Of a stretch of DNA of 64,000 nt, positions 22,423 to 32,578 are shown one piece after another. Both the position numbers and the translations under genes were made by a program. Below the pieces are notes generated by a model that saw only the letters and a list, made by a program, of their open reading frames with translations, ran no database searches and had not been told where the DNA came from. Each line of letters opens with the position of its first letter. The first letter of the stretch is position 1. Source of the stretch: Alphaproteobacteria bacterium (GTDB taxonomy: Bacteria; Pseudomonadota; Alphaproteobacteria; Caulobacterales; Hyphomonadaceae); the NCBI GenBank assembly GCA_016125405.1, contig WGLW01000003.1, positions 1 through 64,000 of the forward strand, written 5' to 3'.

Positions 22423-22881
22423 TCAGGTCTCGGCTTCCAGCGACAGGGTCAGCGTGCCTGTTACCTGAACGCCGGGTCCGGCGCTGAGGTCGAACGCGTA
22501 TTGCGCGCCAAGGCCGGTCGAAGCGAGGCGCGTGGCGCGGATCTCCATTGTGCTGTCGCCCTGGTCCAGCCGGTCCGCCGTCCATGCGACGCCCGAGGCG
22601 ACGACCAGGAAGCCGCGCCGGGGCGGACCGCCGCGCGACAGCGCCGCATGAACCGCCATGGCCTGGGCGGCGTACTCGATCGCCGCAGAGGCGGGCAGGG
22701 CGCCGTTCACCCGCAGCGGATTGTCCGGCGACAGATGGGTGCGGGTGGTGCAGACCACCTCCTCGCCGGCCGCCGACACGACCTGATCGATCAGTCGCAT
22801 GGCGCCTGAATGTGGGATCAGGGCCGCCACGCCGTCCGGGCCGATGGGCAGGGCGTCGATAGAAGGGTCGCTCGGTGTCAT
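22423..22881 (-). CDS. ApeP-like hotdog 3-hydroxyacyl-ACP dehydratase
   Basis: A 152-residue hotdog protein. IPHSGAMRLIDQV carries the His of the FabZ/ApeP active site, and ASAAIEYAAQAMAVHAAL carries the acidic partner on the long hotdog helix. ApeP-type dehydratases remove water from 3-hydroxyacyl-ACP during aryl polyene assembly. The start at ATG 22881 is chosen; a TTG at 22896 is an alternative. It is divergent from the second hotdog gene with a 63-bp shared upstream region, so it belongs with the cluster that follows. Confidence 0.75.
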   Translation of the reverse strand: MTPSDPSIDALPIGPDGVAALIPHSGAMRLIDQVVSAAGEEVVCTTRTHLSPDNPLRVNGALPASAAIEYAAQAMAVHAALSRGGPPRRGFLVVASGVAWTADRLDQGDSTMEIRATRLASTGLGAQYAFDLSAGPGVQVTGTLTLSLEAET

Positions 22882-22944
22882 GACGTTCCGATACAACAGA
22901 CGTGCGCCCTTGCCACCAGCGCCCGCCGCGCGGCATCAACAGCC

Positions 22945-23247
22945 ATGCCCGAATCATTTCGAATCAGTGCGGATCATCCGGCCATGCCGGGCCACTTCCC
23001 CGGACGTCCGGTGGTGCCTGGCGCGGTTATCCTGCAGTGTGTCCTCGATGCCGCAGCCGCGGCGAATCCCGACAGCGCCATCGGCGGCGTCAGGCGGGTA
23101 AAATTCCTGCGCGTGCTGTCGCCGGAAGAGGCGTTTTCAATCGAATTCGAGCCGCCGGGGGCTTCCGGCCTGAAGTTTCGCGTGCGATCAGCGGACGCGC
23201 CGGTCGCCGACGGTCAGCTGATGTTCAGGCGCGGCGACGGAAGCTAG
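22945..23247 (+). CDS. ApeI-like hotdog dehydratase/thioesterase
   Basis: A 100-residue hotdog protein with the FabA/FabZ-like signature GHFPGRPVVPGAVIL, including the His of the HFPxxPxxPG motif, after ISADHPAMP. It is short, as ApeI-type partners are. It probably works with the divergent ApeP-like protein to dehydrate growing polyene intermediates; hydrolysis of the thioester is an alternative. It is the first gene of the plus-strand arm of the cluster. The ribosome site is weak. Confidence 0.7.
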   Translation: MPESFRISADHPAMPGHFPGRPVVPGAVILQCVLDAAAAANPDSAIGGVRRVKFLRVLSPEEAFSIEFEPPGASGLKFRVRSADAPVADGQLMFRRGDGS

Positions 23248-23380
23248 ACTTGCATGTGGGACAGGCGTTGGGGACAGCCGTCCGGACTGCGCCAAGGCGT
23301 CCCATGGCGGCGGGTTGACACCTAGGGTGGGTAGCGACAATGGACGTGTTCAAACGGGGCGGGTTGGAGATCGCACTTCG

Positions 23381-24331
23381 ATGAAAAAGGTGCTGATCAT
23401 CCACTATTCCCAGACGGGACAGCTGACCGACATCCTGAAGTCGATCGCCGGGCCGCTGGAGAAAAATCCCGAAATTTCCGTGACGTTCGCCAACATCGCG
23501 CCGAAGACGCCGTTTCCGTTCCCGTGGGGGTTCTGGCGGTTCTTCAACACCTTCCCGGAAACCGTCTACGAGGATGCCGGCCCTGTGGATATCGTCGGGG
23601 CTGATCCCGCCGGCGATTACGATCTGGTGATCCTGGGCTACACGGTCTGGTTCCTGTCGCCTTCGCTGCCCACCACGGCGTTCCTCAACACCGCCGAGGG
23701 TCAGGCGCTGCTCAAGGGCAAGCAGGTGATCACGGTGATCGGCTGCCGCAACATGTGGCTGCAGGCGCAGGAGCGTATGAAACAGCGCCTCGCCGATATC
23801 GGTGCGCGGCTGACGGACAATGTGGTTCTGATCGACAGCGTGCATTCGGCCGCCTCGTTCTATTCGACGCCGATGTGGATGGTGTTCGGCAACAAGGGCC
23901 CGTATTTCGGCGGCAAGATTCCCGAAGCCGGCATCTCGAAGGACGACATCGCGCGCGCCTCGCGGTTCGGCGAGGCCATCGCCGCCCAGTTGCCGGATCG
24001 CCCGGCGCAATCCACCGCGCCGATGCTGGCGGGGCTGGGCGCGGTCAAGATCAACGACAAGCTGATCGCCTCGGAAAAGGTCGCCAAGCGCAGCTTCATG
24101 CTGTGGGGCAAGCTGCTTCGCGCCATCGGCAAGCCGTCCAATCCGATCCGGGTGGCGGTGATCGGGCTCTACTTCCTGTTCCTGCTGACCCTCATCCTCA
24201 CGGTTGTTCCGCTGCTGGCGATCATCAAGAAGCTGATCGAGCCGCTGACGCGCGCCAAGATCGCCGCCGAGCATGCCTATTTCGCCGCGCCATCGGGGGA
24301 ATCGCGCGCCCAGCTGGACCAGGGTGCATGA
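23381..24331 (+). CDS. darA: Dialkylresorcinol condensing enzyme DarA
   Basis: A 316-residue protein with a flavodoxin-like N-terminus (KKVLIIHYSQTGQLTDIL), the segment FPFPWGFWRFFNTFPETVYE, and a C-terminal hydrophobic hairpin (VIGLYFLFLLTLILTVVPLL) that would tie it to the membrane. This architecture is that of DarA, which acts with DarB to build the cyclohexanedione/resorcinol ring from two beta-ketoacyl chains. The start is at the ATG preceding KKVLI, after GGAGA. Its stop overlaps the darB start (ATGA). Confidence 0.82.
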   Translation: MKKVLIIHYSQTGQLTDILKSIAGPLEKNPEISVTFANIAPKTPFPFPWGFWRFFNTFPETVYEDAGPVDIVGADPAGDYDLVILGYTVWFLSPSLPTTAFLNTAEGQALLKGKQVITVIGCRNMWLQAQERMKQRLADIGARLTDNVVLIDSVHSAASFYSTPMWMVFGNKGPYFGGKIPEAGISKDDIARASRFGEAIAAQLPDRPAQSTAPMLAGLGAVKINDKLIASEKVAKRSFMLWGKLLRAIGKPSNPIRVAVIGLYFLFLLTLILTVVPLLAIIKKLIEPLTRAKIAAEHAYFAAPSGESRAQLDQGA

Positions 24332-25467
24332 CCAGGCACGCATACATTACCCAGACCGCCGCCTTTCTGCCCAACGCGCCTGTTGGCAATGAGGACATGG
24401 AACGCGTCATCGGCCAGTCCGGCGATCGGCCCTCGCGCGCGCGCCGCATGGTGCTGCGCTCGAACGGAATCGTATCGCGTCACTACGCCATCGACCCGGA
24501 CACGCTGAAGCCCAGCCATTCCAACGCGCAGATGACGGCCGAGGCTGTGCGCGCGCTGGGTGCGGACCTGGATGCGGTCGGCTGCATGGCCTGCGGCACG
24601 TCCACGCCGGACCAGCTGATGCCCAACCACGCCGTGATGACGCAGGGCGAACTGAAGATGCACGCGGCGGAAGTCATCGCCACCAGCGGCATCTGCCTCT
24701 CGGGCGCGACCGCCATGAAATACGCCTGGATGGCGGTGACCAGCGGCCAGCACGACGCGGCAGTCGCCACCGGATCGGATCTCGCAACCGCACTGACCCA
24801 GGCCAACAATTTCAGCGCCGAGTCCGACGACAAGATCGACGCCCTGGCGAAGCGCCCCGAGATCGCCTTTGAAAAAGACTTCCTGCGCTGGATGCTTTCG
24901 GACGGCGCCGGCGCCGTGCTGCTGGAAGCAGAGCCGCGCAAGGACGCGCTCAACCTTCGCGTCGACTGGATAGACATCGCCAGCCACGCCGGCGACATGG
25001 AAACCTGCATGTATGCCGGCGCTGTCAAGAACGACGACGGCACGGTCACCTCGTGGACCCGCATGGACCGCGATGAACGCGACCGCCAGTCCGCTCTCGC
25101 CATCAAGCAGGACGTCAAACTGCTGAACGAGGAAGTGATCCGCTACACGCTGGAGAAAACGCTGCAGCCGATCGTTGTGAAGCGTGGTCTCAAGGTCGAG
25201 GACATCGACCACTTCCTGCCGCACTATTCCTCGAACTTCTTCCGCGACCGCGTGAAGGCCGGGCTCGACAATGTCGGCTTCCCGATCCCGCAGGACCGCT
25301 GGTTCTCCAACCTCAACCAGCGCGGCAACACCGGCGCGGCCTCGATCTACATCATGATCGACGAACTGATCCGCTCGGGCCGGGTGGAGCGCGGCCAGCG
25401 CCTGCTGTGCTGGGTGCCGGAAAGCGGCCGCTTCAGCGCCGGCTTCATTCACCTTACGGCAGTCTAG
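24328..25467 (+). CDS. darB: DarB-type ketosynthase III
   Basis: A 379-residue KAS III-family enzyme. The thiolase-fold triad is visible: Cys123 in SGICLSG, His299 in DHFLPHYSSNF and Asn334 in NQRGNTG. DarB joins two beta-keto thioesters and, with DarA, closes the ring of dialkylresorcinols and of the flexirubin alkyl-resorcinol half. It is coupled to darA by an ATGA overlap. This pair is the best diagnostic in the window for a resorcinol-type pathway. Confidence 0.82.
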   Translation: MTRHAYITQTAAFLPNAPVGNEDMERVIGQSGDRPSRARRMVLRSNGIVSRHYAIDPDTLKPSHSNAQMTAEAVRALGADLDAVGCMACGTSTPDQLMPNHAVMTQGELKMHAAEVIATSGICLSGATAMKYAWMAVTSGQHDAAVATGSDLATALTQANNFSAESDDKIDALAKRPEIAFEKDFLRWMLSDGAGAVLLEAEPRKDALNLRVDWIDIASHAGDMETCMYAGAVKNDDGTVTSWTRMDRDERDRQSALAIKQDVKLLNEEVIRYTLEKTLQPIVVKRGLKVEDIDHFLPHYSSNFFRDRVKAGLDNVGFPIPQDRWFSNLNQRGNTGAASIYIMIDELIRSGRVERGQRLLCWVPESGRFSAGFIHLTAV

Positions 25468-25606
25468 GCGTTAGCTGCGCCCGTCAGCGCGGTTATCACA
25501 AACGATCACGAGGATATTCGCGATCGCTCGTTGCCTGAGCCGCCAACGCTTGGCATGGGGTTTGGGCCCGATGCAGTCCCAGGGCGTCAGGCGAGAAAGC
25601 TTCCCC

Positions 25607-26560
25607 ATGCGGCTTCCGAAATTTACGCGCGCCGCAGCCTGTGGGCTTTCTGCGATCGTCCTTGCCGCTGTTGCAGCTTCCAGCGCCGCCGCGCAATCGG
25701 CCGGCCAGCCGGTGATTCCCAGAAGCGCCGACGGACATCCGGACCTTCAGGGAATCTGGTCCAGCCAGTGGCTGACGCCGGTTGAGCGGCCCGCGAGCGT
25801 CAAGGCGCTGGTCCTCGACGAGGCGCAGGCCAGAAAGCTCACGTCTGAAATCCTGACGCGCGCGGACGAGGGCAATCCGCTCGATCCGGAACTCTCGAAC
25901 CCGGACGCGAAATCCCTCGCGATCGTTCGCGGTCAGTATCGCAGCTCGCAGATCATCGATCCGCCCGACGGCAAGCTTCCGCTCAACGACGCCGGACGCG
26001 CTGCGATGCGCGGCTATATCGGCGGCCTCGACGGGCCCGAACAACGCATGACCACGGAGCGCTGCATTGGCGGCGTCGGCTGGGCCCCGTTGCAGATCCG
26101 CAGCGCGAACATGCTCCACCGCATTGTTCAGACGCCGAACTATGTGGTGCTCCATACGGAAGCCTATGACGATCTGCGGATCATCCCGGTGGGCGTCCCC
26201 CACATGCCGCGCGCCGTCAGTCCGCCCGGCGGCGATTCAACCGCCCGCTGGGACGGCGACGTGCTCGAGGTCGAAACCCGGAATTTCGCGCCGGACCTCT
26301 CCACCCACGGGATCGTAACCGTGCTGAGTCCCAAGGCGGTCATTGTCGAGCGCTTCGAACTCGTCAGCCCTGACGAGTTGATCTACCGCTACACGGTCAA
26401 CGATCCCGAATACTATTCATCGCCCTGGACGGCCGAGTATTCGTTGGCCCGCACCAGGGACCAGATGTACGAATACGCCTGCCACGAAGGCAATTATTCA
26501 CTGCGCGGCATGCTCTGGGGCGCGCGCCGCCAGCAGCGCGAGGCAGGCGGCGGCAAGTAG
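25607..26560 (+). CDS. Exported protein of unknown function (PDLQGIW family)
   Basis: A 317-residue protein with a signal peptide (MRLPKFTRAAACGLSAIVLA, then AVAASSAAAQ). The mature part starts with RSADGHPDLQGIWSSQWLTP and ends in a beta-rich region (STARWDGDVLEVETRNF, ELIYRYTVNDPEYY). This start pattern is frequent among exported proteins of Caulobacter-like and acidobacterial genomes, without known function. It is set off by a 139-bp gap from darB and 99 bp from the next gene and has no link to polyketide chemistry, so it looks inserted in the cluster. The start is at the ATG that begins the signal peptide; a longer frame begins at 25550. Confidence 0.6.
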   Translation: MRLPKFTRAAACGLSAIVLAAVAASSAAAQSAGQPVIPRSADGHPDLQGIWSSQWLTPVERPASVKALVLDEAQARKLTSEILTRADEGNPLDPELSNPDAKSLAIVRGQYRSSQIIDPPDGKLPLNDAGRAAMRGYIGGLDGPEQRMTTERCIGGVGWAPLQIRSANMLHRIVQTPNYVVLHTEAYDDLRIIPVGVPHMPRAVSPPGGDSTARWDGDVLEVETRNFAPDLSTHGIVTVLSPKAVIVERFELVSPDELIYRYTVNDPEYYSSPWTAEYSLARTRDQMYEYACHEGNYSLRGMLWGARRQQREAGGGK

Positions 26561-26659
26561 CCGGATCCCGGGCCGAAGTCTGATCCCGGCGGCTGCCGGT
26601 GGATGACGGCGGCGAGTGGCCCCGCTAGTCTCTGCGTCATCGAATCTTGGACAGGCGCT

Positions 26660-27061
26660 GTGAAGAAAGAAGACGTTCCCCAGGACAAGGCGGCCGCGCT
26701 CGGCGGACAGCGCAAGCTGCTCTATGCGGTCGACGACAAGGGCGAGTACACCGGCGTCGCCTCGGTGGGCTGGGAGCCGGAGGACTACGCCACCACCACC
26801 GCCGTGAAAGAGATCGACCGCCTGCGCGACGATGCGCTGGCGCGCGCCCGCAAGGGGACAACCGCGCCGCTGGAATATCACATGTACGCCCGCCGCATGG
26901 AGCCCGCGACCCTGTCGCAGACCACCGGCTGGCCAGAATGGCGCGTGCGCCGGCATTTTCGTCCGGGGGTGTTTGCAAAGCTTCCGGCGAGGATGATCGC
27001 GCGCTATGTCGACGCGCTCGGCCTCACCGCCGAGGAGTTGCATGGGCTGCCGCCGGAATGA
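26660..27061 (+). CDS. Small conserved protein of the resorcinol cluster
   Basis: A 133-residue soluble protein starting at a GTG (KKEDVPQDKAAALGGQRKLL). The C-terminal ~60 residues have the look of a helix-turn-helix: TLSQTTGWPEWRVRRHFRP then FAKLPARMIARYVDALGLTA. I recall similar unannotated proteins starting K(K/R)xDVPQDK next to flexirubin/dialkylresorcinol genes of Bacteroidetes; this should be verified. Its stop overlaps the BtrH-like gene (ATGA). It could be a cluster regulator or an enzyme-associated factor. Confidence 0.6.
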   Translation: MKKEDVPQDKAAALGGQRKLLYAVDDKGEYTGVASVGWEPEDYATTTAVKEIDRLRDDALARARKGTTAPLEYHMYARRMEPATLSQTTGWPEWRVRRHFRPGVFAKLPARMIARYVDALGLTAEELHGLPPE

Positions 27062-28047
27062 TTGAGTTTCAGCACCGCCAGTCGGCGCATTGCGAGACGG
27101 GCGTCGTCTCCAACCTGCTGACCCACAACGGCCTCGCGATGAGCGAGCCGATGGCGTTCGGCCTCTCGTCCTCGATGACCTTCGCCTACATCCCGATGGT
27201 GAAGATGGCCGGCATGCCGCTGATCGGATACCGCCACCTTCCGGGCAGCGTCATCTCGGGCGTGGCTAAGCGCCTGAAAATGAAATGGGACAAGCGGACC
27301 TTTTCCAGTCCCGATGACGGCATGAAGGCGCTCGACGCCCATCTGGAATCGGGCAGGGCGGTCGGCATGCAGACCAGCGTTTACTGGCTGCCCTATTTCC
27401 CGCCGGACATGCGCTTCCATTTCAACGCCCACAATCTCGTCGCCTATGGCCGCGAGGGCGATGATTATCTGGTCAGCGATCCGGTATTCGAACAGCCCAA
27501 CCGGTGCGACGCCGCATCGATGCGCAAGGCGCGCTTCGCCAAGGGCGCGATGGCCGCGAAGGGCATGCTCTACTACCCGGTCGATACGCCGAGCGAGATC
27601 GATTACGCGGAGGCGGTGCCCACAGCCATCCGCTGGAACCGCAAGACGATGACCAAGGCGCCGATCCCCATCGTCGGCATTCGGGGCATTCGCTATCTCG
27701 GCCGCAAGATCAGCCGGCTGGGCAAGGGCGCCGAGCGCGAGAAATATCTGCCGCTCTATCTCGGTCACATCGTCCGCATGCAGGAAGAGATCGGCACGGG
27801 CGGCGCGGGTTTCCGCTTCATCTATGCGGCGTTCCTGCAGGAGTCCGCCGCGAAGCTGAACAATCCGCTGCTCAAGGACGCCGCCGTGAAGCTTACGGAC
27901 GCGGGCGATGAATGGCGCCGGTTCGCGCTGCAGGCCACCAAGATGTGCCGCGGCCGCATGAAGATGGACACCGACGTCCTCGAAGGCCAGCTCAACAAGA
28001 TCGCCGACCAGGAGCGCGACTTCTGGAAAATGCTGGTCGAGGTCTAG
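27058..28047 (+). CDS. BtrH N-terminal/DUF4872-type transferase
   Basis: A 329-residue protein. The N-terminal half has the BtrH papain-like pattern: SAHCETGVVSNLL with Cys12 as nucleophile, later FHFNAHNLVAYG with a catalytic-type His, and DYLVSDP supplying an acidic residue. The C-terminal half is helical, in line with DUF4872. BtrH moves an acyl group from an ACP to an amine in butirosin synthesis; relatives occur in aryl polyene and flexirubin clusters, so acyl transfer from the cluster ACP is the natural guess. It overlaps the preceding small gene by 4 bp and is convergent with the KS-like gene, sharing the bases CTAG at their stops. Confidence 0.7.
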   Translation: MIEFQHRQSAHCETGVVSNLLTHNGLAMSEPMAFGLSSSMTFAYIPMVKMAGMPLIGYRHLPGSVISGVAKRLKMKWDKRTFSSPDDGMKALDAHLESGRAVGMQTSVYWLPYFPPDMRFHFNAHNLVAYGREGDDYLVSDPVFEQPNRCDAASMRKARFAKGAMAAKGMLYYPVDTPSEIDYAEAVPTAIRWNRKTMTKAPIPIVGIRGIRYLGRKISRLGKGAEREKYLPLYLGHIVRMQEEIGTGGAGFRFIYAAFLQESAAKLNNPLLKDAAVKLTDAGDEWRRFALQATKMCRGRMKMDTDVLEGQLNKIADQERDFWKMLVEV

Positions 28048-28934
28048 AACCGCACGGCGAACGCTGCGAACCGCCCCTCGGCGTCCCGGTTCACATGCAG
28101 CAATGTGGTGACGCCCTCCGGCCGTTGCGCGAGGAAGGCGGAAACTGCGGCTCCGCTCTGGCTGTCGTAGTACGCGCGGCCGTCGCGATAATCGAATGTC
28201 GGTGTCACGCCGGCTCTCGCGGCGATCGCGGCAGTTTCAGTCGCATCGCCGAACTGCCCGACGGATAGCGCCGTCCCGGCGCCCCGCGCGTGCCTGGCGA
28301 TCCATGTTTCCAGCGCCGCGCCGTCGGCCAGCACCTCCACGGATGTCAGTTTCGCGCCTTCGTCCGCCGCGTCGCCAGCCTCGAGCCACAGCCAGTGCGA
28401 GCCTTCGGCAACGGGCGTTCCCTCCGCCAGCCTCAGACGCTTGCGATGCACGTCCAGCGGCGCCAGCACGATGTCCGTCGACCCTACAAGCGCCGATGTG
28501 GAAACGCCTGCCTCCATGTCCAGCATGGCAAGCTGCAGCGCAGACTCGAAGCTGAAATACCGGTTGCACACGAACGCCGACCGTCCGCGCAGCCCAAACT
28601 GCTTGGCGATGTAGAAGCACGCCGAATTGCTGACCGTGTTGATGAAGCTCAGCGGCCGTGGCGCCTGTCCATCGCGAAAGAGCTGCTCCATCACATCCGC
28701 CGTCACCTCCATGTCGCCGCGGCCGGAGGTGAGGTAGACGCCGGTTGTGGCCGGCAGCTGGCGCTGACCCACACAGCGCGCCGCGCCGATCAGGGCGAGT
28801 TGCACAAAGCGTCCGACGCGGCGCACCTGCGCGCCCAGCGTCTGCTTCACCAGCGGCCCGAGTTCCGGGAGCGCCTCGTCTGCCTGAGCGTAATAATCGC
28901 CCGCGGCGCGGATGAAGATGGCGCGCTCAGCCAT
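28044..28934 (-). CDS. Ketosynthase-like partner lacking the active Cys (CLF-like)
   Basis: A 296-residue protein with a thiolase-like core but shorter than a full ketosynthase. The stretch that should hold the nucleophile reads CNRYFSFESAL (123-133): neither Phe127 nor Ser128, the candidate equivalents, is Cys, and the downstream His motifs of KAS I/II are absent. It overlaps the end of the active ketosynthase gene by 8 bp. By analogy with chain-length factors and the KS-like partners of aryl polyene systems, it would form a heterodimer with the adjacent ketosynthase and set chain length. Confidence 0.65.
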   Translation of the reverse strand: MAERAIFIRAAGDYYAQADEALPELGPLVKQTLGAQVRRVGRFVQLALIGAARCVGQRQLPATTGVYLTSGRGDMEVTADVMEQLFRDGQAPRPLSFINTVSNSACFYIAKQFGLRGRSAFVCNRYFSFESALQLAMLDMEAGVSTSALVGSTDIVLAPLDVHRKRLRLAEGTPVAEGSHWLWLEAGDAADEGAKLTSVEVLADGAALETWIARHARGAGTALSVGQFGDATETAAIAARAGVTPTFDYRDGRAYYDSQSGAAVSAFLAQRPEGVTTLLHVNRDAEGRFAAFAVRF

Positions 28935-30075
28935 TCGACATCACCAGCGCGGTGTTGTTGCCGCCAAAGCCAAAGTAGTTGAGCAGGAAGTCGCCGCGTC
29001 CAACCGGCGTCGGGCCCTGCGTCAGCGATACGCCCAGATCCGACGGATCGGCGCCGACGCCCGGCGTTCCCGGAACAAAGCCGGCGCTGGCGGCGCCCAG
29101 CAGCATCACCAGCTCTGCAAGGCCGCAGGCGCCGAAAGCGTGTCCGATGAACGGCTTCAGCGCGCACAGCGGCGGCAACCCGTCGCCGAACACCTGCCGA
29201 AGCCCAGCCGCCTCGGCCTCATCGTTCAGCAGGCTTGCTGTGCCGTGGGATTTTACGGCTGCGACATCGCCCGGCGCCACACCGGCGGCGCCCAGCGCCT
29301 CGCGCATCACCGCTGCGACCGTTGATCCATCCGGGTTGGCGGCCGAAATGCCGTGCGTGTCGCAGAGATTGGCGGAGCCCGTCAGGCGGAAGGCGCCTTC
29401 CCGTCTTTCAGGTCCAACCACCACGGCGGCGCAGGCCTCGCCCAGAACGATACCGCGCCTGTTTTTGTCGAAGGGCCGCATTCCGTCCGGCGCCAGCAGG
29501 TCCAGGCTGCGAAAGCCGAGCGCCGTGGTGCGGTTGAACAGTTCCGTGCCGAGGATCAGCGCATGGCTGGCCCGCCTCGTGCGCACCAGCATGTCGCCAT
29601 AGACCAGCGCATTGGCGCTGGCGGTGCAGGCCGTGTTGATGGTGAGGTCCATGCCGCCCACGCCCAGCCGTTTCGCCAGCACGCGCCCCATCTCGCCCAT
29701 GCTGGAATTCGACATCAGCGGATATGCCTCGCCGCCCGATGCAAGATCGCGCGCGTAGGCTGCTTCGGTCATCGAAATGTCCAGCGAAGACGTGCCGAGC
29801 AGCAGCGCGGTAGTCTTCAACTCGTCGGGACCAAGCTCCGCTTCTGCGATCGCCTCGCGTGCCGCGCCTTCGACAAGGCGATAGAGGCGGTTTTCGGGAT
29901 CTTCCTCGACCGCGCCGGCCATGCCGAGACTCGGCACGACTTCAACGCCTGCGCCAAGCGGTACGTCCAGCATGCGCGGCGCGGATGGCGGACGGCGCAG
30001 CACCTCCACCGTCGCAGCGACGCTATCTCCCAGCGCGCTGCGAATCCCCGCCCCGACAAGCCAGGCGTCTGTCAT
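28927..30075 (-). CDS. Beta-ketoacyl-ACP synthase (KAS I/II type)
   Basis: A 382-residue ketosynthase with a complete C-H-H triad: Cys150 in NTACTASANAL, His277 in KSHGTASLLND and His312 in KPFIGHAFGACG. It should catalyse decarboxylative Claisen condensation of malonyl-ACP with the growing chain. Its start overlaps the ACP gene by 4 bp and its end overlaps the CLF-like gene, as expected for a KS/ACP/CLF set assembling the polyene or alkyl chain. Confidence 0.85.
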   Translation of the reverse strand: MTDAWLVGAGIRSALGDSVAATVEVLRRPPSAPRMLDVPLGAGVEVVPSLGMAGAVEEDPENRLYRLVEGAAREAIAEAELGPDELKTTALLLGTSSLDISMTEAAYARDLASGGEAYPLMSNSSMGEMGRVLAKRLGVGGMDLTINTACTASANALVYGDMLVRTRRASHALILGTELFNRTTALGFRSLDLLAPDGMRPFDKNRRGIVLGEACAAVVVGPERREGAFRLTGSANLCDTHGISAANPDGSTVAAVMREALGAAGVAPGDVAAVKSHGTASLLNDEAEAAGLRQVFGDGLPPLCALKPFIGHAFGACGLAELVMLLGAASAGFVPGTPGVGADPSDLGVSLTQGPTPVGRGDFLLNYFGFGGNNTALVMSNG

Positions 30076-30350
30076 GCGGCGGCGGTTCTCGCATCAATGA
30101 TGAAGTCGGCGAGCGCGGCGGTGGAGGCGAAGGCCCGGCGCGCATCCGGCCCGCCCTCGATCCGCACGCCGTAGCGCTCCTTCACGGCGAGGCTGATCTG
30201 CAGGGCGTCGAGGCTGTCGAGCTCCAGCCCGTCGGCGATCAGCGCCATGTCATCCGGAATGCTGTCCGCGTCGCGGTCGAGGTCGCATTCCGCAAGGATC
30301 ATCTCCTTGAGGCCGGCGATCAGCGTTTCGCGGTTGGGTAGAGCAGTCAT
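30072..30350 (-). CDS. Acyl carrier protein
   Basis: A 92-residue acidic four-helix carrier. DGLELDSLDALQ includes Ser46, the phosphopantetheine attachment site, followed by a typical helix III region. The start lies just after the ABC permease stop, and its stop overlaps the ketosynthase start. It is a dedicated carrier for the cluster rather than the housekeeping AcpP, which normally lies in a fab operon. Confidence 0.85.
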   Translation of the reverse strand: MTALPNRETLIAGLKEMILAECDLDRDADSIPDDMALIADGLELDSLDALQISLAVKERYGVRIEGGPDARRAFASTAALADFIIDARTAAA

Positions 30351-30356
30351 GCCTGG

Positions 30357-31607
30357 CTATTCCTGACGCCTGTGGAGGCCGAGTGCGATGACGATCGCCA
30401 CCGTGCCCAGCGCCCCCAGTTTCAACACTTCGGGGACTATATCGCGAACCCCGCCGCCATGCAGCAGGAGTTCGAGGAATCCGTCGAGTCCCCATGCCAT
30501 CGGGGAATAGCCCGACAGGGCGCGCATCGCCTCGGGCATGACGAAGCGCGGCACCATGATTCCCCCGAAGGCGCCGAGGATAATATTTCCCAGCGCGCTC
30601 ATCATGCTGGCCTGCTCGCTGGTTCGCGCAATGGCGGCGATCAGCAGCGCCAGGCCAAGCGCCGCGAAGCTCACCGAGACGCCCATCAGCACCAGCGCCA
30701 CCGGATCGCCGCGAAGCTGCAGCGCTTCCCCGCCCAGCAGCGGCACAATGAAAATGCCGACGCAGAACATCAGCACCACCTGCACCTGGTTCACCCCGTA
30801 ATAGGGCAGCAGCTTGCCGAAGATCTGGCTGGAGGACGCAAGGTTGGTGGTGCGCAGGCGCCTCTGCGTGCCGAGGTCGCGCTCGCGGATGAAGGTCTGG
30901 GCGAAGGGTATGGCGACGAAGAAGATCGAGAACACCAGCCACGCAGGAACGTTCTGCTGCACGGCGCTGGGCGATGCGCCGCTCTTTGCGGCGTCGTAGG
31001 TGTAGGTCACGGTCACCGGGTCCACATCGGCCTTCGGCTCGGGCGCTGGCTCTCCATCGGCCCGCGGCGGGGCGAAGCGCGACAGCGCCGTGTCCACGCG
31101 CTGGCGTCCCATCGCATTGCGCAGCGCGGCGAGAAAGATCAGCTCGCTGCGCTTTTCCGCATCCGGCGCCACGAGCACCTCGACGCCCGGAGGCGCCGTC
31201 TCCGGCGTTGATGCGCGTAACGCGGCCGGCGTCGCGGACTTCGCCAGCTGCTCGCCATACCCTTTTGGGATGATCACGCCGAAGGTCTGGTCGCCCGCCT
31301 TCACCGTCGCCATCATGTCGTCGCGTGACCGGTTCGCGCCGGTCGTCCAGCCGAACGCCTTCACCGTTTCAAGCCGCGCCGTCAGGTCGCGCGAGGCGTC
31401 GCTCTGGTCGAAATCCGACAGCTCGACCTTGATCGCCGTCGCCGGGCGCGGCGCGCCCGAGCGCGCGGCGAACACATCCTGCAGCGCCAGCGACATCACC
31501 AGGATGAAGATTGTCGGCATGAGAAAGAGCAGGGCGAGCGCGTGCGTGTCGCGCATCAGCAGCCGCGTTTCCTTGACGACAGACGCGATGAACCCGGACC
31601 GCTTCAC
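30357..31607 (-). CDS. ABC-2 type exporter permease
   Basis: A 416-residue membrane protein: one N-terminal span (ALALLFLMPTIFILVMSLAL), a ~190-residue periplasmic domain, then about five C-terminal spans (WLVFSIFFVAIPFAQTF onward). This is the ABC2_membrane_3 architecture. The soluble motif TFIRERDLGTQRRLR is the usual coupling segment. Its start overlaps the ATPase stop. The pair probably exports or flips the lipid-like cluster product to the cell envelope, as ABC exporters in flexirubin clusters are thought to do. Confidence 0.85.
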   Translation of the reverse strand: MKRSGFIASVVKETRLLMRDTHALALLFLMPTIFILVMSLALQDVFAARSGAPRPATAIKVELSDFDQSDASRDLTARLETVKAFGWTTGANRSRDDMMATVKAGDQTFGVIIPKGYGEQLAKSATPAALRASTPETAPPGVEVLVAPDAEKRSELIFLAALRNAMGRQRVDTALSRFAPPRADGEPAPEPKADVDPVTVTYTYDAAKSGASPSAVQQNVPAWLVFSIFFVAIPFAQTFIRERDLGTQRRLRTTNLASSSQIFGKLLPYYGVNQVQVVLMFCVGIFIVPLLGGEALQLRGDPVALVLMGVSVSFAALGLALLIAAIARTSEQASMMSALGNIILGAFGGIMVPRFVMPEAMRALSGYSPMAWGLDGFLELLLHGGGVRDIVPEVLKLGALGTVAIVIALGLHRRQE

Positions 31608-32578
31608 GCCGCCTCACCATCGTCCGCGTTGTCGCTGATCAGGTCGATATAGACCTTCTCCAGCCGGCTCTCGCCATAGCGCACCTGTGCGGCCTCAAGG
31701 CCCAGTGCGCCCAGCGTCTCCAACCATTCGCCCATCTTCAGGGTCGACCCGGCCGGCGCATCGAAGCGCCGGTCATCGCTCCATTGCGCGCCCATCGCGA
31801 AGAGTTTCTCGCGTTCGCCCGCATCCGGCGCCCGGGCGAGCCGGATGTGAACATGGCCGGGATCGCCCGCCTGCTGGTAGTCGGCGATCGGTCCGCGCGA
31901 AACGATCCTGCCATTGTTGACGATGCAGATCTCGTCGCACAGCGCCTCGACCTCTTCCATGTAGTGCGAGGTGTAGACGATGGTGGTTCCGGTGCGCCGG
32001 ATGGCGGCTACGGCGTCCGTGATGGTGCGCCGCGAGCGCGCATCGATGCCGACGGTTGGCTCGTCGAGATAAAGCACGGCAGGCTTGTTCAGCAGCGCGA
32101 TGGCGAGGTTGAGCCGGCGCTTCAATCCGCCTGAATAGGCTTCCGCGCGCTTGTTCATGTGATCGCCCAGCTGGCAGATTTCGACGGCCTCGGCCATGCG
32201 GTCTTTCCAGCTTGCCTTGTCGAGGGCGTAGGCTCCGGCGAAGAAGTCGAGATTCTCGAAACCGGTGAGCGCCGGATAGAAGGCGAAGTCCTGAGGCGCC
32301 AGCCCGCTGAGGGCGCGCACCTGCGCCAGGCTGGTGCGGGCCGAGTGTCCCATCACGGTAATCTCGCCCTGCCTGGGGCGCCTGATTCCGGACAACAGGG
32401 AAAACAGCGTGCTCTTTCCGGCGCCGTTGGGGCCGAGGAGGCCGAAGCACGACCCCTTGCGAACGGTGAAGCTGATGTCCGACAGGGCCGGGCGGCTGGC
32501 CCGGGGATAACGCCATGTCAGGTGCGAAACCTCGATGGCCGGGGCGGTTTTCCCGCCGGTTTCCGCCGGTTCCGTCAT
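31604..32578 (-). CDS. ABC exporter ATP-binding protein
   Basis: A 324-residue ATPase: Walker A GPNGAGKST, signature AYSGGLKRRLNLA, Walker B LYLDEPTVGID, H-loop VYTSHYMEE. The C-terminal ~80 residues form an accessory domain. It is the first gene of the five-gene minus-strand operon (ATPase, permease, ACP, KS, CLF-like), all overlapping or nearly so. The promoter must lie in the 181-bp gap shared with the divergent M23 peptidase gene. Confidence 0.88.
   Translation of the reverse strand: MTEPAETGGKTAPAIEVSHLTWRYPRASRPALSDISFTVRKGSCFGLLGPNGAGKSTLFSLLSGIRRPRQGEITVMGHSARTSLAQVRALSGLAPQDFAFYPALTGFENLDFFAGAYALDKASWKDRMAEAVEICQLGDHMNKRAEAYSGGLKRRLNLAIALLNKPAVLYLDEPTVGIDARSRRTITDAVAAIRRTGTTIVYTSHYMEEVEALCDEICIVNNGRIVSRGPIADYQQAGDPGHVHIRLARAPDAGEREKLFAMGAQWSDDRRFDAPAGSTLKMGEWLETLGALGLEAAQVRYGESRLEKVYIDLISDNADDGEAA

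Follow-up and report, generated by a model that had tools for sequence, protein, structure and literature searches.

A probable dar cluster forming the predicted resorcinol half of a split hybrid-pigment pathway in a Hyphomonadaceae bacterium

Introduction

The closest described counterpart of the gene cluster considered here is the dialkylresorcinol (DAR) cluster of Azoarcus BH72, azo0283-0293, which comprises darA, B, D, E, F, I, C, J and K; its DAR proteins yielded DAR in E. coli, unlinked arc loci make a polyene, and the authors proposed an ester, arcuflavin, in which the partner of the resorcinol is a xanthomonadin-like polyene (PMC3949708; this and the other articles named by PMC number are cited from parts of their text). 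Free DARs also exist (PMC3949708). The present locus occupies positions 22423 to 32578 of a 64,000-nucleotide stretch (the window; G+C content 64.6%) at the start of contig WGLW01000003.1, which belongs to an alphaproteobacterium of the order Caulobacterales, family Hyphomonadaceae (assembly GCA_016125405.1). It is most likely an unremarkable dar cluster of regular make-up, from a host clade that has received little description, and one half of a split hybrid-pigment pathway, and we are reasonably confident that it makes the predicted resorcinol half of an arcuflavin/flexirubin-type pigment. Its classification in a preliminary description as a DAR/aryl-polyene-type cluster is supported by the StlD/DarB score, the accessory gene set and the gene-list match to azo0283-0293 (PMC3949708).

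Gene content and layout of the locus

The locus contains 12 genes, with all products in open reading frames:

22423-22881, minus strand: DHa, ApeP-like hotdog dehydratase subunit (ApeP profile, 3.3e-11; first ATG at 22881, TTG at 22896 possible)
22945-23247, plus strand: DHb, ApeI-like hotdog dehydratase subunit with an HFPG motif (ApeI profile, 3.2e-7; FabA Pfam)
23381-24331, plus strand: DarA, probable aromatase with a flavodoxin-fold domain and C-terminal helices (AlphaFold/Foldseek; adjoins DarB in relatives)
24328-25467, plus strand: DarB, StlD/DarB-family ketosynthase/cyclase (NF005293; StlD 5gk0; Cys-His-Asn)
25607-26560, plus strand: 317-residue protein, probably secreted, family-less, between darB and darG
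26603-27061, plus strand: DarG-family small protein in the place of DarD of the Azoarcus naming (NF053536; weakly predicted XRE-like helix-turn-helix)
27058-28047, plus strand: DarH, BtrH-related acyltransferase, DarE in the Azoarcus naming (NF053550; C12/H121/H125/D141)
28044-28934, minus strand: Cys-less ketosynthase-like partner (CLF) in the place of DarK (ketoacyl-synt under cut-off; Tyr at the nucleophile position)
28927-30075, minus strand: ketosynthase (KS), compare DarJ (Ketoacyl-synt N and C; PDB 6qsp)
30072-30350, minus strand: acyl carrier protein (ACP), compare DarC (PP-binding; S46)
30357-31607, minus strand: ATP-binding cassette (ABC) ABC-2 type permease, compare DarI (ABC2_membrane_3)
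31604-32578, minus strand: ABC transporter ATPase, compare DarF (ABC_tran)

The gene set named in the preliminary description (hotdog dehydratases, DarA and DarB, a small protein, a BtrH-like protein, a KS, a Cys-less partner, an ACP and an ABC-2 exporter) was largely borne out, although its count of ten becomes 12 because the exporter comprises two genes and the gene at 25607-26560 had gone unlisted. Its picture of two converging operons overlapping by 4 bp holds from DHb onwards, darH and the CLF gene converging with 4 bp shared (28044-28047); it fails for DHa, which is transcribed away from DHb, so that at least three transcription units are present. The DarA/DarB and DarG/DarH junctions and those among the minus-strand genes show overlaps of 4-8 bp or a spacing of 6 bp, and a promoter and terminator scan gave no signal above shuffled sequence.

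Enzymes of the dar cluster

DarB is the most firmly placed enzyme: it scores 568.9 bits against the NCBIfam StlD/DarB model NF005293 (cut-off 450), its best PDB match is StlD (5gk0; 434.9 bits, 2.6e-129), and the catalytic residues C123/H299/N328 are kept in 79/80 aligned rows, the remaining row having a gap. Against the exception-level NCBIfam model resorcinol_DarB it reaches 459.5 bits, below the curated cut-off of 550. DarA is probably identified by its place beside DarB (75/80 relatives match DarA) and by its fold, the AlphaFold model (predicted local distance difference test score 90) having a flavodoxin-fold domain followed by C-terminal helices that bear a hydrophobic run. Foldseek matched the model to WrbA/flavodoxin proteins (best E 8e-7; WrbA-type about 1e-6) with template-modelling scores to the query below 0.4, low values that probably reflect WrbA-type matches covering one domain; helical receptors among the matches listed (about 1e-5) are read as chance matches of the C-terminal helices. 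The predicted flavin-dependent aromatisation, in which DarA would bind flavin mononucleotide, agrees with the name "DAR-aromatase" used in PMC3949708.

The small protein belongs to the NCBIfam family DarG_fam (NF053536; 150.4 bits, cut-off 70), and the C-terminal half of its structural model weakly resembles an XRE/Cro helix-turn-helix, with Foldseek E values of 0.0055 or worse and, among the matches, some enzymes that carry a domain of this type; as a lead only, this protein may be a regulator, though named biosynthetic. DarH matches DarH_acyl (NF053550) at 479.8 bits against a cut-off of 300, and C12/H121/H125/D141 are kept in 82/82 aligned rows. Searching PDB sequences with DarA, with DarH and with the product of 25607-26560 gave no useful match.

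The KS carries both the N and C Ketoacyl-synt domains of Pfam, has 6qsp as its best PDB match and keeps C150/H277/K307/H312 in 56/56 rows. Its CLF partner scores 19.1 bits for ketoacyl-synt, under the cut-off of 20.8, and has a Tyr in place of the nucleophile Cys, which is seen in 1/51 rows (window included) of a loose alignment with 4 gaps. The ACP matches PP-binding at 22.1 bits, S46 being present in 63/64 rows with 1 gap, and the exporter proteins score 98.8 bits (ABC2_membrane_3) and 104.4 bits (ABC_tran), both above cut-off. The earlier statement that no DarC oxidase is visible is to be read beside the Azoarcus naming, in which DarC is the ACP (PMC3949708), a protein encoded at this locus.

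A polyene cluster and a lyase elsewhere in the genome

On contig C17 the genome (99.99% complete, 56 contigs) has an aryl-polyene cluster that is almost complete, dehydration being the sole core step without a gene there. This cluster encodes a first KS (PRK09185, 405 bits against a cut-off of 407), a second KS, a CLF (Ketoacyl-synt_2), two ACPs, an acyltransferase, a PlsC acyltransferase, a thioesterase, LolA_3 and MMPL proteins, a reductase, a halogenase-like flavoprotein, DUF3261 and DUF1428 proteins, MipA, a GT2 glycosyltransferase, a phosphopantetheinyl transferase-like protein under cut-off, an AMP ligase matched best by the 4-coumarate ligase model (105 bits, cut-off 334.7) and one apparent membrane protein that no Pfam model matched. 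On contig C14 lies the only PF00221 protein of the genome, an aromatic ammonia-lyase sharing 64-75% identity with lyases that lie within or next to 15 of the 16 other polyene clusters of the order. A 550-residue stretch of it scores 399 bits with the BagA tyrosine-lyase model, 393 and 380 bits with histidine-lyase models and 337 bits with flexirubin FlxA, and a shorter stretch scored much the same. At a motif residue that is Glu in histidine ammonia-lyases and Gln in tyrosine and phenylalanine ammonia-lyases (Schoner et al., PMC3992019), it has Gln as judged by eye, a second motif being ambiguous. An ordinary HutH was considered and set aside, given 380 bits against the HutH cut-off of 539 and the close kin within polyene clusters. 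The polyene cluster of a genus-mate (G010:C21; L132, L127, L133) resembles C17 in that no lyase was seen in the 50 kb read.

The preliminary description had found the missing starter, reduction and export genes odd and, as the first of two alternatives, had them come from elsewhere. They are indeed not adjacent, and a search of the rest of the genome located the reductase, ligase, LolA-like and MMPL proteins, two KSs, CLF and two ACPs on C17 and the lyase on C14; their absence from the locus is nonetheless not peculiar, because the locus is a DAR subcluster standing on its own, the core of which is seen in many genera and in Azoarcus BH72. C17 and C23 are separate contigs, and the dar and polyene loci, here called separate in the sense of not adjacent, would be separated by no less than about 30 kb even should the closest contig ends join.

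Co-occurrence of DarB and the polyene ketosynthase

The two arms are associated across the order. DarB and KS searches with the same number of genomes and the same handles were taken as one set of 398 genomes, with the polyene KS called at E<=1e-100; DarB was over its cut-off in 9/398 and the polyene KS present in 17/398, including 9/9 DarB-positive genomes and 8/389 others (Fisher 4e-14), and a count by genus, which alone handles kinship, gave 7/7 against 3/52 (4e-7). In a set of 61 genomes (this one and 60 relatives), with the polyene KS called at 391 bits or more (FabF-type at most 260), the four genomes with DarB over cut-off were all among the eight with a polyene KS. Within the nine, the two genes lie at most 15 kb apart in two genomes (G586, G740), on one contig but 0.4 and 1.8 Mb apart in two (G471, G019) and on different contigs in five. 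By this comparison of gene content, the nine-of-nine co-occurrence makes a polyene-resorcinol hybrid a likelier product than a simple alkylresorcinol. The suggestion of a simpler alkyl- or polyenyl-resorcinol thus loses ground, and a simple alkylresorcinol from a partnerless cluster was set back once the C17 cluster had been found.

The dehydratase pair

The real oddity of this genome is that the only ApeP/ApeI-like pair found in it, DHa/DHb, sits in the resorcinol half. DHa was the only genome match (E<=5) of A1, a profile built from 7 of 16 polyene-cluster ApeP proteins (3.3e-11), and scores 16.8 bits for Pfam ApeP-like, under the cut-off of 27; DHb was the best match of A2, built from 5 of 15 ApeI domains (3.2e-7), a profile that reaches a FabA-like C14 gene too (0.004), and scores 25.3 bits for FabA (cut-off 23). 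After weak matches and unclean frames were dropped, rows from 18/24 loci (DHa) and 19/20 loci (DHb) were aligned with the window. H24, E69 and Q73 of DHa (numbered from ATG 22881) are at least 95% conserved in 19 rows, the Glu in 19/19, six of these rows (L037 and five Pseudomonas) being genes away from darA; H17 of DHb, the His of HFP (from ATG 22945), occurs in 20/20 rows, with no conserved Glu. A His on DHb and a Glu on DHa fit what PMC8041823 describes for ApeI/ApeP, a heterodimer that has just one active site.

In the other polyene-KS genomes of the order set, ApeP lies between the KS and the reductase in 16/16 and an ApeI domain is found at the ligase in the 15/15 testable, the short contig of G565 having no ligase in the stretch; in the five relatives read out, ApeI is fused to the ligase in one frame. 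On C17 the ApeP slot holds DUF1428 (L100:5940-6317), and the ligase stops short of the ApeI domain. The notion that DHa/DHb is the polyene dehydratase simply moved into the dar locus is weakened by the other eight DarB-positive genomes, in which the dar pair has a role of its own because the polyene ApeP/ApeI pair is present as well. One DHa/DHb pair may serve both loci in the present genome, or the polyene arm may be decaying, and a general FabA or FabZ could also substitute as the polyene dehydratase. Our tentative proposal, which we put somewhat below an even chance, is that the polyene cluster lost ApeP/ApeI and that the paralogous DHa/DHb, a composite-site dehydratase with its His on DHb and its Glu on DHa, serves both arms and ties their inheritance together.

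The cluster in relatives and its history

A genome scan with DarH was used through the best 80 of 305 relatives, ranked by similarity and not a survey, which come from Caulobacterales, many Gammaproteobacteria including Pseudomonas, Desulfobulbales-type bacteria, Campylobacterota and, with one contig each, three further phyla. Gene order DarA-DarB-DarG-DarH recurs in these relatives, with darA-darB inverted in L033. Among these 80, on some cut contigs, matches were found for DarB in 78, DarA in 75, DarG in 79, the ATPase in 66, the permease in 65, the ACP in 63, the KS in 55 and the CLF in 52; DHa matched in 23 and DHb in 19. DHa is no more than 2.5 kb from darA in 14/23 loci (at one of them, L069, it is the ApeP belonging to a linked polyene set), as is DHb in 18/19, and 8/9 of the farther DHa matches are on Pseudomonas contigs, mostly beside polyene genes. 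The second half of the cluster, with the ACP as marker, is on the opposite strand in 43/80, on the same strand in 20/80 and not seen in 17/80, again with some contigs cut. In L023 (Hirschia sp. SP140) no CLF-KS-ACP-ABC matches occur near darH, and in L154 (G471) about 8 kb separate darH from the CLF gene; from these two loci the halves look separable.

In a DarH tree of 80 rows (79 of the 80 loci and the window), the nine alphaproteobacterial rows, window included, form one branch (100/97) adjoining two gammaproteobacterial rows, which points to an older acquisition and led a recent lone transfer into this strain to be set aside as an explanation. DarB at 1e-60 was found in 0/14 genus-mates, and loss in those genomes is just as likely an explanation; DarH at 1e-30 was found in 2/385 genomes of the class, one of them a contig-end fragment. 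Among the open-access articles listed by literature searches on this cluster in Caulobacterales, none describes it, as judged by title or abstract start. Separately, a DarA-like protein (annotated hypothetical, 34-35% identity) adjoins a DarB-like gene on three Streptomyces plasmids (NZ_CP109562.1, 115427-117398; NZ_CP108465.1, 21302-23273; NZ_CP108315.1, 26675-28646), a similarity that suggests DAR-type chemistry in Streptomyces.

The gene at 25607-26560 puts 1135 bp between darB and darG, a gap of about 0 in most relatives listed (largest exceptions 418 bp in L014 and 841 bp in L030), as measured from longest reading frames, so that overlaps are overstated. The N-terminus of its product resembles a signal peptide as judged by eye, Pfam and NCBIfam at 0.01 and PDB sequences at 1 gave no match, and 0/80 related loci had a tblastn match; on these grounds the protein is probably outside the pathway.

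Proposed pathway and alternatives

StlD/DarB enzymes take one beta-ketoacyl and one 2-enoyl thioester. In the proposed order of steps, the KS-CLF-ACP set with DHa/DHb would supply the acyl substrates, keto-reduction falling to FabG or to the C17 reductase; DarB would condense two such fatty-acid-type thioesters to a cyclohexanedione, which the flavodoxin-fold DarA would oxidise to a 2,5-dialkylresorcinol. The aryl polyene would be made by the C17 cluster, probably from a cinnamoyl-type starter provided by the C14 lyase, DarH would be the likely BtrH-type acyltransferase esterifying it to the resorcinol, and the ABC pair may export the product or an intermediate.

Several observations weigh against this assignment. 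Three of the nine DarB-positive genomes are related members of one genus, G056, one of the 61 genomes, carries a DarB-like gene that stays below cut-off at 329 bits and lacks a polyene KS, G010, a genus-mate, lacks DarB and has a polyene cluster, and co-occurrence is distinct from biochemical coupling. No NCBIfam or Pfam model matched DarA at 0.01, so that the profile check of the DarA/DarB pair came out for DarB, over its StlD/DarB cut-off, and left DarA without a model match; the acyltransferase role suggested for DarH derives from a model name and from resemblance to BtrH. The C14 lyase is below cut-off on all models, with similar tyrosine and histidine scores. Finally, A1 and A2 searches of the whole genome found neither ApeP nor ApeI on C17, whose polyene arm may be impaired.

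That impairment could extend to the pathway as a whole, which would then be decaying and make no hybrid pigment, the polyene dehydratase having been lost, the lyase lying elsewhere and an unrelated gene sitting in the dar operon. The DUF1428 gene in the ApeP slot, the ligase lacking its ApeI domain, the insertion at 25607-26560 and the absence of DarB from the genus-mates would all suit such decay; we nevertheless regard it as unlikely, given open frames in the genes checked at both loci, an ApeP/ApeI-like pair that persists in the dar cluster and the retention of catalytic residues in the dar enzymes (those of the dar cluster alone having been aligned). It is distinctly unlikely that a free DAR, acting as a signal or antimicrobial, is exported by the ABC pair while the polyene cluster works apart: the known free DARs, the adjoining DarA/DarB homologues on the three Streptomyces plasmid records and the eight genomes of the order (G010 included) with a polyene KS but no DarB lend this some plausibility, against which stand the constant presence of the polyene KS wherever DarB is over cut-off in the 398 genomes, the close linkage of the two in G586 and G740 and the BtrH-like acyltransferase within the cluster. 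A C17-independent route, in which KS-CLF-ACP-DHa-DHb builds a polyenoyl or acyl chain of non-aryl type for DarH to join to the resorcinol as an ester, is improbable despite the grouping of these dedicated proteins with DarH, since every DarB-positive genome of the order has a polyene KS and the Azoarcus dar cluster also lists a KS and an ACP, yet has a xanthomonadin-like polyene as its proposed partner (PMC3949708).

With the resorcinol half of a hybrid pigment as the preferred assignment, the locus illustrates why dar clusters can look incomplete: each resorcinol arm found in this order came with a polyene arm, often not next to it, and cluster-by-cluster mining would mispredict the product of such split pathways. 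The order is thereby marked out as a clade hosting hybrid pigments, and the present genome offers a natural gene-loss case bearing on the exchangeability of ApeP/ApeI-type dehydratases between pathways.

Comparison with known systems

The flexirubin clusters of Chitinophaga pinensis and Flavobacterium johnsoniae combine DarA/DarB with aryl polyene genes, a tyrosine ammonia-lyase and a 4-coumarate ligase; the F. johnsoniae dar genes lie inside a 37-kb cluster (PMC3992019), whereas the dar, polyene and lyase genes are apart here, and DarB, DarG and the C14 lyase score below the resorcinol/flexirubin-specific NCBIfam cut-offs. Relative to the aryl polyene clusters of E. coli CFT073 and Acinetobacter (gene list from PMC8253772), C17 has counterparts by family or place of ApeC, D, E, F, H, K, L, M, N, O, Q and R, together with a matching glycosyltransferase and acyltransferase (J) and, by place alone and without a Pfam match, G; ApeI and ApeP are absent from C17, and no methyltransferase (ApeB) was seen there. 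Acinetobacter carries ApeI as a fusion with ApeH (PMC8041823), an arrangement also seen in relatives of the present genome.

The nearest likeness remains Azoarcus BH72. By gene-list comparison, both loci have DarA (a probable one at the present locus), DarB, a small protein, a BtrH-like protein, an ABC pair, an ACP and a KS, the hypothetical gene darK of Azoarcus standing in the position of the CLF (PMC3949708). The window adds DHa/DHb and a foreign-looking gene and is without the Azoarcus PilT/prevent-host-death pair, and the starter, which involves a XanB2-type chorismatase in Azoarcus (PMC3949708), has a candidate lyase as its source here. In both genomes the polyene genes are found at other loci.

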